Source of the DNA: Diphasiastrum complanatum
Lineage: Eukaryota > Streptophyta > Lycopodiopsida > Lycopodiales > Lycopodiaceae
Assembly (NCBI GenBank): GCA_029204225.1
Contig: CM055098.1
Span: 1,549,106-1,613,105, forward strand
Length of the DNA: 64,000 nucleotides
Direction: 5' to 3'
Below are positions 8,761-21,586 of the stretch, piece by piece. Under the pieces are notes generated by a model. That model was not told where the DNA came from. It ran no database searches and worked only from the letters and a program-made list of their open reading frames with translations. A program made the position numbers and the translations under genes. Position 1 is the stretch's first letter. The number at the start of each line of letters is the position of its first letter.

Positions 8761-8778
8761 GAGAGAGAGAGAGAGAGA
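8761..8778. repeat. (GA)9 at left border of the P1-P4 array
   Basis: This short (GA)n tract abuts the 3' side of element P1. It is the leftmost of the (GA)n spacers that delimit the four minus-strand Penelope-like elements. Confidence 0.85.
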
Positions 8779-10346
8779 TACACAATAGTGGGGAAGACAG
8801 GTGTCATAGCTGAGCGTTAGTTGTTATTTATGTCCAAAAGAAAGTATACTACTTAACAACATAAATAGCATTTTTAATCATAGTCCGGTCTTCCCAAACG
8901 AAAAGAATGTTTTTTAGCAATAGGCCAAGCCCTGACAATACCGTATCAGGACAAGTGCCATGCTGATCAATTTTAGGACATTGGCCATATCAGTTCGTTT
9001 TGTTTTATGCATAAGTATGAATAGTTTTCACCGTATACCTTGTTTATCGCTAAAAGATATGGTGTGGACACGTGTACATGTGTTAGAACAAATTCATGCT
9101 ATGATAACCCTGGTGACTCTAATTTCAAAAAACAAGTCACGTACTAGTGTCCATACTCCTGAGCCATGCTTTCCAATCGTATCTCACCATGCTTGATATG
9201 ATAACTAAATGGGTATTAATTTGTAAAAGCCATGATTGAATAGTGTAGTTTTGAATAAACTTGTGTTTATCAACACTCCGTATTCCACCGGTGGTATTTA
9301 TTAAATTGTTTTGGATAGGTTACATATTATCGGTGAGGTTTTCATGGTTTTTACAAGGTATCAGTGCAGATCCATGCCATTCTAAACGTTTTGTCGTTTA
9401 TCTTACGCAAATCCATGTTGTCTAAGATAATTTAAAAAAAACCTTGCTACAAGACGGCAAAAGTGTCAACTTAACAGAGTTGTTAAGCTGTTTACGAGTT
9501 GGTAGAATCTAAATAGGTAAAAAGAGACGTATTTAAGAATTTAGAGTCACTACTAGCCAAAGAGAATTGAATATATCTGTATAAAAACACATTCCCTTTG
9601 AGCGTAAGCGGCTTATGCAGAGTCTGAATTTTGTTGCAAGAATTCATACCTGGATGATCGCATATGTGTTTTCTTGTGAGGATGTCATGTTATTCCTTCG
9701 AGTGCTCTTGTCTTCTTTAGAATCAAATCATTCATACCATTATTGTCAAATAAGGTAAAAAGCAGAACTCAGCATATCAAAGAAAGCCTTTCATTAATCG
9801 CTTATATCAATTGGGAGCGAGTGGTTTTATGTATATACCTGTGTAGACGCTTATAGAATTATGGTTCGAAACCGAACCAAACCGAGAAAGACTGTTGTAG
9901 TAATAATCGATGCTACACGAAGCGCATGTTACTTCCTTTAGTGATTGAATACTAGTATTCTCTTTCAAGTGGAAACCAGTAGATAGTATGCTAGCAGCTT
10001 GACTAAAGCATGATGGGTAACGAATAACGCCAAAGCAGCAAGCATCTGAGCTGTAAATCTTGTATGCTAAAATGCAAGCAGAGTTGGTTCTTGTAAATAA
10101 CCTTTCAAAAACAGAATAAGACCGAAGAGACATTCTATCTCTTGTCGGATACTAGTGCTTAATGTGTGTTATGTTATCACAAGAACATCCTTCATAAACA
10201 CATGCAATAATTGTAGAACAAAAGAGTGCTTCATCGCTGGTATTCTACATCATAAACATACTTCTATAACTACACAAACGCTATGATGCATGGCCATCCT
10301 TGGCATGCAGTGATCATGATGAAGCGTTAGTCCAACATCGTGATAA

Positions 10347-11186
10347 ATTCTACAGTTTTTAGGACAATAATGATTGTACTTTACAATCATAGAGAGTTAT
10401 TGGTTGCTTAATCAATGGATCTATCAAGTTCTACACATTAGATCTTGATCTAGATTCACTACACTTGGATTTAAACAAGAGCAATGGATCAGCACATCAT
10501 AAATCAGTGAGAGCGGCCTCACACATGTGGAGTATTGTCCACAGTACAGCCTGCACCTGAAACAACAAGTACATTAATCCTAGATAGCAATCATTCATAG
10601 AAATCACAAGACAAATGACTAGAAACCTCACAAAAGTGTAGAATGCAAAAGTCTCATCAATATTCTTAGCAAAATGATGATCCTTTTATGGATCAGGTAC
10701 ATCCACAAGTCTGGTACAGTCCAGCAGGTCTTCACACGTGTGAAGAGTTCCACATCACTCAGATCTATCCATCTGATCCATCCTTGATCCTTATCAAAAG
10801 CTGACCTTCTAGAATATGGCTAAAATCCAAAAACCTAGTCTCCTAGAATATAGGAATATTCCCTACAAAATAGGATCTAAGGAAAATGGTCAACTCTTAT
10901 CTTCTAGTACTCTATACACACGTGTGAACATCCACTTGCCATGTGGGAGCATTTACTCATGCACATGCAAGGAAAAGCTAATTTCTAGGTGACTAGTCAA
11001 CTTGAATAAAAACTAGTCATATCATGTTCACACTAACTAGATTGATACAAAATCAATTTAGATATATACAAGTATGAAAAGTACATCCTTTCACACGTGG
11101 GAACATGCTCCACATGTGTAAAATCAGATCATCAACATTATTCTAATGTTTGATCAATATTTACAATAACCAATGTCAAGTGAGAA
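10347..11186. mobile_element. unidentified 840-bp insertion inside P1
   Basis: P4 lacks this segment at the matching position (near 20856). It is bracketed by 'gtgataa' at 10340-10346 and again at 11187-11193, a candidate 7-bp target duplication. The insert contains paired words such as 'cacacgtgtgaa', 'cacatgtgg' and 'gttattggttg/caataaccaat', but has no ORF and no clear terminal inverted repeat. It could be a MITE or a deleted LTR element. The boundaries rest on comparison with P4 only. Confidence 0.45.
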
Positions 11187-11200
11187 GTGATAATTTTCAA

Positions 11201-11387
11201 CACATCGCTGGACAACGGACTACTTTTATCAACTTTATCAATCAACAGTTATGATAGATCCATCGTCGGACAGCGGATCAAAATACATCAAATATTCACT
11301 ATTTACCTGAGCCTATTCCATCACTGGGGAAGTGCCACAGATATGGAAAGTGGGCAATCGCTTGGTCCATCGTTGTGGACAGCGGAT
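11201..11387 (-). repeat. CCATCGCTGGACAGCGG hairpin motifs of P1
   Basis: Four variants of the motif occur at about 11201, 11258, 11318 and 11364, spaced 46-60 bp. In the best copies the core can pair as TCCA-TCGC-TGGA, and the following CAGCG can instead pair with the central CGCTG. The same cluster recurs at 20856-21060 in P4 and in longer form at 16333-16859 in P3, always in the 5' part of the element. Confidence 0.7.
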
Positions 11388-11738
11388 AAACCAACACGCA
11401 TAAACCTTCAAAGGGAATGCAAGCTTTCTTATCATAGAGATATGAATGGATCAAGGAGAAAAGAGTTAAACCACATACCCTATATCATAAACGAATAAAC
11501 CAAAGCTTCGGCGTGCTCTCTGCTATGAGCATATCTCCAAACCGTATAGTAGAAAAGCTATAGTCGAAAACAGGTGATATATAGCAGTTTGTGAGGAACC
11601 ATCGTGGAAGAGCCCGACTAACCAAAATGGTGGAAAACTTTTTTTTTGAATAAAGCCACACAGGGTTGGGTTTGAAAAAAGGCTTAGGACCTCCAGATAA
11701 GTAATTTTTTTTGTGATTTAAAATAAAGAAGAGTCCAT

Positions 11739-19390: not shown

Positions 19391-19533
19391 ATGGATAGCT
19401 TCAAAAACTCTATTGCGGTAACATCAATGTAAAAAAGAGCTCCCTGAGTCACTGCCAGTAATCAACTAGAGACGTCCTATCACCGAGAAACTGACTTCTC
19501 TCCTTTCTGTCCTTTCCCCATCGTGCACATCGA

Positions 19534-20695
19534 TTAGTCCCAGTAAAAATTTAGCCTCTTGATAGGTAAGTTGCTCTTTGTACTACTTTGCCCTTCCTTT
19601 CCAGTGAACCGTCTTTTCTTTCTTGTCCCTGACCCTGATACAACTGAGTTTGGATTGTTGAGATTGAAATTGCCCGTTCTTTTGCTTGTAATCTGAAAGT
19701 ATTTATCTTGGAGTGTGGAAAAGCTTGGTCGTTTCAAAAGGCGTTCTATCTCACGTATGTTTTCAACATCTCCCAGGTGTGCTAAGAGTTTGGTAGAAGA
19801 ATCTTTGGCAAGCTCAATAGAGGCATCAATCATGTACTGTCGGGATGAAAAGAAAGGTAAGGTGCGCTTTAACCACATCTTTGGCATGTTTGTGTAGCCA
19901 CATGAAGAAAGCATTCATTTGGTTTAGGAGGGAAGCACCATGAAAGAACTTGCCTAGGTTGTTCATTATGTACCAAATGGCGTGGTCAAACCAGATAATG
20001 GATGAATTGTTTTTGCATTTGTCACCACATCTACACTTGAAGAAAGGTCGTTTCCAGTTCCATATTCTGGCTTGGTGAAGGTTCATTCTATTGAAGCCAA
20101 TTTCAAAGTGTCCTCTGATTCTGGCCCAGGTTTGCTCAGAATGGCAGCGAGAAGGCCCAAATTTGTTCATGCGCATAACAGTATCAAAGGCCACTGGAGT
20201 TTCAAGAGAGGAATTTTTGTGTAAAGCAGCTAACTTACATACATCTATTTCTTTTTCAATGAGATGTGACATCAGGATCCAAAGGTCGATAAGCACAGGA
20301 GCAAGAAAGTTGACAGTAGGTAGGCTCCAGAGCTTATAGGCAGTAAAGGCAAATTTTAATTCAATGGTTCTGCTAGGTACAAAGGGGATTTGACAGTTTT
20401 TGGATTGGCAAAATTCATACAAAGATTGATCTCCAATATCACATATGTCTTGAGAAATCAATTCAAGCTGGGAAGCACTATCCTCATCAAGATCACCTAA
20501 AAAGACCAAAGGGTGTGGTGATAGAGGTGCATCAAAGGTGGAAGGTGGAATATCAGCAGTAGAATAACCATTCCCATTTTCAAGGCAAGCAAAGACTTTT
20601 CTAATATGCAGATTGAAAAATCTTTCTTCTTCCTCAAAACTTCTGACAAATTCATTAAGCCTGCCATAAAGATTTTCTACCAAACTCAAGAACAT
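19534..20695 (-). pseudogene. ORF1-like protein (P4)
   Basis: First part 19826-20695 (289 aa): 'LVENLYGRLNEFVRSFEEEERFF', 'LWSLPTVNFLAPVLIDLWILMSHLIEKEI', 'KRPFFKCRCGDKCKNN', 'FFMWLHKHAKDVVKAHLTFLF'. After a frameshift the second part (19534-19914) gives 'QYMIDASIELAKDSSTKLLAHLGD…', then a basic stretch 'GTRKKRRFTGKEG'. Collinear with the P2 copy and clearly homologous residue for residue, which supports these frames over the overlapping plus-strand ones. Function unknown; the Cys cluster and basic tail suggest nucleic-acid binding. Confidence 0.6.
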
Positions 20696-20855
20696 TCGTC
20701 ATAAATACATGCAATGATTGTAGAACAAAAGAGTGCTTCATCACTAGTATTCTACATCATAAACATACTTCTGTAACTACACAAACGGTGTGACACATGG
20801 CCATTGTTGGCATGCGGTGATCATTATCAGTTTAAGTGTGTGGAGAGAAGCGTTA

Positions 20856-21060
20856 GTCCATCGCTGGTCTACTTTTATCAATTTAATCAATCATCAGTTA
20901 TGATAGATCCATCGTTGACAGTGGATCAAAATACATCAAATACTCACCATTTACTTGAGCCTATTCCATCGCATCGCTGGACAGCGGAGTAATCCATTGT
21001 AAAAAGTGCCACAGATATGGAAAGTGATCAATCGTTGGTCCATCGCTGGTGGACAGCAGA
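20856..21060 (-). repeat. CCATCGCTGGACAGCGG hairpin motifs of P4
   Basis: Four copies at about 20856, 20907, 20963 (with an internal 'catcg' duplication) and 21037, in the same order as the P1 cluster. They lie between the 5' terminus and ORF1, in what would be the leader of a sense transcript. Confidence 0.7.
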
Positions 21061-21433
21061 TCAACCAACACACATAAACCTTCAAAGGGAATGCAAGCTT
21101 TCTTATCGTAGAGATATGAATGCATCAAGGAGAAGAGAGTTAAACCACATACTGTATATCATAAACGAATGAAAAAAAGCTTGATAGGGTGCGCTCTCTA
21201 CTATGGGCATATCTCCAAACCGTATAGTAGAAAAGCTTTAGTCGAAAATAGGTGACATACAGCAGTTCATGAGGAAGCTTTGTGGAAGAGCCCTTCTAAC
21301 CAAAATGACGGGAAACCATTTTTTGAATAAAGCCACATAGGGTTGGGTTTGAAAAAAGACTTAGGACATCCAGATAAGTAATTTTTTTTGTGATTTGACC
21401 AGGGGACGTACTTTAAAATAAAGAAGAGTCCAT

Positions 21434-21586
21434 GAGAGAGAGAGAGAGAGAGAGAGAGAGAGAGAGAGAGAGAGAGAGAGAGAGAGAGAGAGAGAGAGAG
21501 AGAGAGAGAGAGAGAGAGAGAGAGAGAGAGAGAGAGAGAGAGAGAGAGAGAGAGAGAGAGAGAGAGAGAGAGAGAGAGAGAGAGAG
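21434..21586. repeat. (GA)76 at the right border of the array
   Basis: About 153 bp of uninterrupted GA directly after the P4 5' end. It is followed by 'gtgggggtatgtctttagggttt', which resembles the spacer sequence at 8.69-8.74 kb on the other side of the array. Confidence 0.95.

Follow-up and report, generated by a model that had tools for sequence, protein, structure and literature searches.

TC-edged, probably Penelope-like retroelements in Diphasiastrum complanatum and their possible use of GA/TC microsatellites

What joins a retroelement to a dinucleotide microsatellite at one edge after another in a plant genome? The question is raised by a 64,000-nucleotide stretch of Diphasiastrum complanatum, hereafter the window (C7:1549106-1613105, on CM055098.1, the 75.1-Mb sequence C7 of a 1.745-Gb genome), in which an array on the minus strand alternates with tracts of GA that read TC on the sense strand used throughout this account. 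A sequence-only reading had seen here four Penelope-like elements (PLEs) chained head to tail by (GA)n, and the related minus-strand repeat DNA between the tracts, forming a same-strand retroelement array with a reverse transcriptase (RT) and no endonuclease found, is indeed present. From its sequence, the array can be parsed as leader, open reading frame (ORF) unit, leader, cut ORF unit and leader, with the 3' end of a leader here called X. The reading offered below, tentatively and at somewhat less than an even chance, is that an endonuclease-less plant PLE lineage may live on GA/TC microsatellites rather than telomeres, carrying TC edges of its own, priming on broken GA strands, closing its 5' side on host TC and making of each insertion the next landing site, so that arrays would form inside chromosomes.

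The genome is very rich in GA/TC tracts, with (GA)15 alone giving 1,574,016 and 1,589,100 overlapping matches on the two strands, and the association was therefore measured at the element edges themselves, using exact words that sample larger families, with reversed-pattern controls alongside. The 16-mer at the leader 5' end, ATGGACTCTTCTTTAT, has 356 exact genomic copies, and 320 of them stand directly after TCTCTCTC (reversed controls 0 and 0). At the 3' end of the ORF unit, the 15-mer GGTCGGTTGGTGGGT occurs in 146 exact copies (control 1), 122 of which directly precede TCTCTC (control 0); likewise, 58 of the 64 exact copies of the X 16-mer, AAGTGGTGTCTTGTAA, directly precede CTCTCT (controls 0). 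The background for these edges was the genome-wide (GA)15 count together with the window outside 7900-22600, a region that itself contains some family fragments and in which, out of 49,300 positions, TCTCTCTC starts at 196 on one strand and 38 on the other. The association with TC at the sampled edges is strong and above chance: in the exact-match samples the leader begins on TC and finishes at X with a short tract, (TC)3-5, and ORF units run out into (TC)n. Most copies lacking GA/TC flanks, the pattern that would have told against the sequence-only reading, is thus not what the exact end words return.

The families behind these words are larger: 114 of 5472 candidates were scored for the RT query and 40 of 2494 for X. 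A similar picture emerges from individual loci. Among 30 leader loci excised from 42 matches, some of them near-identical duplicates, 25 have a TC edge, upstream of which lies an ORF-unit 3' end in 9, X in 4 and other sequence in 12; the last group comprises 9 distinct flanks, of which two resemble each other. The RT sample numbered 24 loci (20 excised, out of 119 matches, and 4 fetched separately), of which 15 reach the ORF-unit 3' end and 9 stop inside the unit. All 15 ends enter TC; they amount to 12 independent cases, there being three duplicate pairs, and include one end assessed by eye, blastn having stopped short of it (L060) and one with about 10 other bases before the TC (L044). Beyond the TC, 11 of the 15 continue by alignment into a leader (in L042 for its first 17 bases only), and L054, L060 and L061 continue with ATGR.., a possible leader.

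These loci also redraw the units of the array. A relative at C10 (L059) aligns at 85% with window positions 16355-14691 without interruption at the (GA)5 tract of 14878-14887, and the same joint, X-(TC)3-5-T(G/A)CA, recurs in L060, at two places in the C1 locus and in 6 of the 12 X copies that were sampled. The pieces previously named P3 and P2 are therefore the leader and the ORF part of one unit, so that the count of four separate elements falls, and what remains are two true GA joints, of 16 and 146 units, plus two GA borders. The idea of GA as joining DNA survives in part: head-to-tail TC/GA seams recur at many other loci, but the repeat is not purely external, because in several places the TC is an inherited part of the element, as the 15 of 15 ORF-unit 3' ends that enter TC, and the at least 11 that go on into a leader, indicate. 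The same plan appears elsewhere. At C10 an ORF unit is flanked by direct leader repeats that are 89% alike; at C11 a leader stands on each side of one ORF unit, with 95.7% identity over 465 bases, TC included; and at C1 three leaders accompany two ORF units, with matching pieces longer than 150 bases 93.8-98.1% alike. By its sequence, this layout of direct leader repeats around ORF units corresponds to the partial tandem of Penelope elements, pLTR-ORF-pLTR, where pLTR denotes a pseudo-long terminal repeat.

The protein evidence bears on where such elements belong. The RT is real: Pfam RVT_1 matches L041 with an E-value of 3.3e-6 and 27.4 bits, just under the curated threshold of 29.6, three TAG codons being read as Q, and the motifs SKCYENIPL, GIP(T/M)GFSCSP and RYIDDICF can be recognized, all three motifs in P4. 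No endonuclease family, GIY-YIG included, was found by Pfam in the ORF pieces scanned, in copies that are broken and with the last stretch of the ORF unit unscanned. PDB sequence searches gave nothing telling on the placement of the RT, and an AlphaFold model of the RT alignment, with a mean predicted local distance difference test score (pLDDT) of 34.6, was too poor to use. Architecture, together with the style of the motifs, makes a place among the endonuclease-deficient PLEs likely. Passages in PMC9033089 and PMC12477314 list such elements among plants for Selaginella, Pinus and Picea, and a passage in PMC3846280 describes endonuclease-deficient PLEs as restricted for the most part to the ends of chromosomes, telomeric repeats marking their junctions. 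The present family shares with them an RT without detected endonuclease and head-to-tail units, but its junctions are TC rather than telomeric repeats, and its copies lie in interior positions among the first 100 listed. With Penelope/Poseidon it shares the pLTR-ORF-pLTR partial tandem, as described in parts of PMC11167929 and PMC3846280, which also report an internal start of reverse transcription for one such element; unlike those GIY-YIG-bearing elements, it has leaders of up to about 2.5 kb that are TC-edged. A parallel might also be struck with Togen on (TG)n, presented in a passage of PMC4640811 as a microsatellite-specific non-LTR retrotransposon, inasmuch as a dinucleotide repeat lies at the element edge; elements of that type, however, bear an endonuclease, belong to another RT group and have a stated target specificity, whereas strict targeting is not established for the TC-edged family. 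A hammerhead ribozyme motif in the pLTR is reported for some PLE members; in 7900-22600 of the window no hammerhead is among the Rfam matches up to an E-value of 5, and the idea that the seams contain a hammerhead or another known RNA was set aside, Rfam giving three chance-level matches only. The literature searched contained nothing on TC-edged PLEs, which does not by itself show their absence from print. Algal PLEs are said, reportedly by Craig in 2021, to have (CA)n sites.

Did the host TC exist before the elements arrived? Sequence comparison suggests that it did at two loci. At C11 the host satellite unit ends in CGCATGG and then TC; one unit has (TC)51 and no element, and the unit that follows has (TC)52 and then the element. 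The window array has a 31-bp direct repeat in its flanks, imperfect at 26/31: one copy, in the 5' host flank (21586..21616), abuts (TC)76, and the other, in the 3' host flank (8719..8749), comes just after (TC)9 and a run of C and is followed by TC-rich host DNA; none of 1000 shuffled pairs scored as high. On both sides of the array, then, there is a copy of the repeat as well as TC-rich host DNA. The repeat could represent either an old target-site duplication or simply a repeat of the local host DNA, the latter being possible because a similar motif recurs at about 8674. As to insertion into one kind of microsatellite, C11, the window flanks and the leader edges beside TC speak for it, the C10 and C4 borders and the sampled X ends against it.

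Several observations weigh against strict targeting of TC. Among leader 5' ends, 36 of 356 exact copies have no preceding TCTCTCTC, and 5 of the 30 leader loci have no TC edge, four of these being near-identical and starting at probe base 118. The 12 sampled X ends divide into 6 internal to an element and 6 that leave it, the latter with about 3.5 TC units in three cases, 7 in one, about 40 in one and none in one; since three pass into other DNA after only about 3.5 units, short TC is to be seen as the element's own tail. The other two sister satellite units at C11 carry (TC)5 only. No target-site duplication was found in the 7 other cases examined, no empty allele was seen, and the borders at C10 (5') and C4 (3') lack TC. 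Targeting of TC by the element is plausible nonetheless, and about as probable as its opposite; a new niche on GA/TC microsatellites for a plant RT element, as the sequence-only reading had put it, is likewise plausible, on the few loci that lie behind it.

Beyond TC at most sampled edges, the mechanism is one that we infer. GA/TC tracts in general break or open easily, and may do so here. The element RNA would have (UC)n in its interior and (UC)3-5 at its terminus, and its TC part might pair with GA-rich host DNA at a free 3' end, being copied there without an endonuclease of its own. The complementary DNA (cDNA), on reaching the internal (UC)n, would end in (GA)n, which could anneal to host (TC)n across the break; the 5' junction would be closed in this way, at the edge of the leader. 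Several rounds at one and the same TC, or an RNA of more than one unit, would then build up arrays in head-to-tail order, seamed by TC.

The chief rival to this landing and priming on TC holds that the repeat is an inherited part of the element only—for example, a pyrimidine-rich start at the leader edge—lengthened by slippage, with no seeking of TC targets. It accounts for the internal seams, given the 15 of 15 ORF-unit 3' ends entering TC and the at least 11 continuing into a leader; it is favored further by the short TC tail at X beside unlike DNA, and by L060, whose RT is only 48% identical in amino acids and which keeps the same 3' end and TC. It has more difficulty with the long TC that separates the leader edge from 9 distinct other flanks, and with the neighboring host unit at C11 with TC of equal length and no element, and as a full account it seems possible but on the doubtful side. 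Recombination or repair between scattered TC tracts could alternatively have stitched unrelated pieces together, with transposition unconnected to TC. The window, which mixes subfamilies, and its cut ORF unit followed by X and long TC, fit such stitching; the leader edge word following TC at one exact position in 320 of 356 copies, and the single orientation kept by the pieces in the arrays seen, do not, and as a general explanation it is improbable, even though recombination at TC has probably added to the window array.

Two further explanations fare worse still. Long dinucleotide tracts are difficult to assemble, and an assembly artefact at the long GA tracts might be suspected, but the same seams occur at many places on different chromosomes, which makes this very unlikely. 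Chaining of the telomere type, with copies added to the exposed end of a chromosome as is known for telomere-associated PLEs that lack an endonuclease, had been suggested by the geometry of the array. Head-to-tail order and the lack of a found endonuclease agree with it, as do degenerate CCCTAA-type (plant telomere-like) repeats at 22938-23042, about 1.3 kb past the array 5' border. The window, however, lies at 1.55-1.61 Mb of a 75.1-Mb sequence, the first 100 copies listed are scattered along C1-C7, and the seams are TC rather than telomere repeats, so that the suggestion retains hardly any likelihood.

In light of this, the window array may be described from its 5' end, all features being on the minus strand; the five GA tracts read earlier from the sequence are all confirmed. 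The 5' border is (TC)76 (21434..21585), followed by P4 (17403..21433), in which a leader of about 747 bases (20687-21433) is fused to an ORF unit (17403-20686) with the 3' end GGTGGGT; its RT motifs A (18350-18376), B (18077-18106) and C (17953-17976) are spread over more than one frame. An inverted repeat of the GGGCAGTTAGCT..AGCTAACTGCCC type lies near the P4 3' end (17403-17500) and in relatives, shortly before the terminal GGTTGGTGGGT, and the C4 copy terminates right after an inverted repeat of this type. The (TC)16 joint (17371..17402) leads from the ORF-unit 3' end to the next leader (ATGGATGC), namely P3 (14888..17370), a 2.48-kb pLTR-like leader without an ORF of at least 150 aa and with X as its 3' end. 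After the (TC)5 internal joint (14878..14887), which is kept in relatives and is no between-element junction, comes P2 (12185..14877), an ORF unit that breaks off a short way past RT motif A (12319-12345), with motifs B and C not found in 12185..14877; it is 72% alike to the P4 ORF unit, marking the array as a mixture of subfamilies. A second copy of X (12031..12184) directly follows the cut, and the (TC)146 joint (11739..12030, with one interruption) links it to the next leader. This is P1 (8779..11738), which has no ORF and resembles the C4 leader at 77% over 11738-11203 and at 81% over 10320-8785; about 880 bases between (10321-11202) have no match there, being either an insertion or a lineage-specific stretch. 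The 3' border is (TC)9 and then a C run (8761..8778). The whole would represent a Penelope-like retroelement in two decayed copies of mixed subfamily, with no detected endonuclease and with the leader as pseudo-LTR; taken together with the priming and annealing proposed above, this reading has about even odds.

Elsewhere in the window, the leader fragments 40365-40827, 55843-56145 and 57183-59371 share one X 3' end, and the X-ended fragments near 40743, 55843 and 59370 are accompanied by about 36, 4 and 5-6 TC units, respectively. An open frame of 1249 aa at 34024-37773 (minus strand) has no Pfam match and contains, at 36790-37469, coding sequence repeated in tandem (30/90 bases), and three consecutive open frames at 44834-48724 (minus strand) resemble, by eye, a broken Copia-type element. 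At L049 (C5:24131137-24132129) an RT piece, truncated on either side, is joined in frame to Copia-like coding sequence, with TC at neither edge.

PLEs and telomerase share ancestry, and how copies of endonuclease-less PLEs spread away from telomeres is a question on which the TC-edged family bears. Hundreds of related copies in this genome are edged by TC/GA, which may be what the element lands on or chains by. Since the family is large and most of its sampled edges bear TC, natural junctions abound at which the microsatellite can be probed as primer, annealing partner or passenger.

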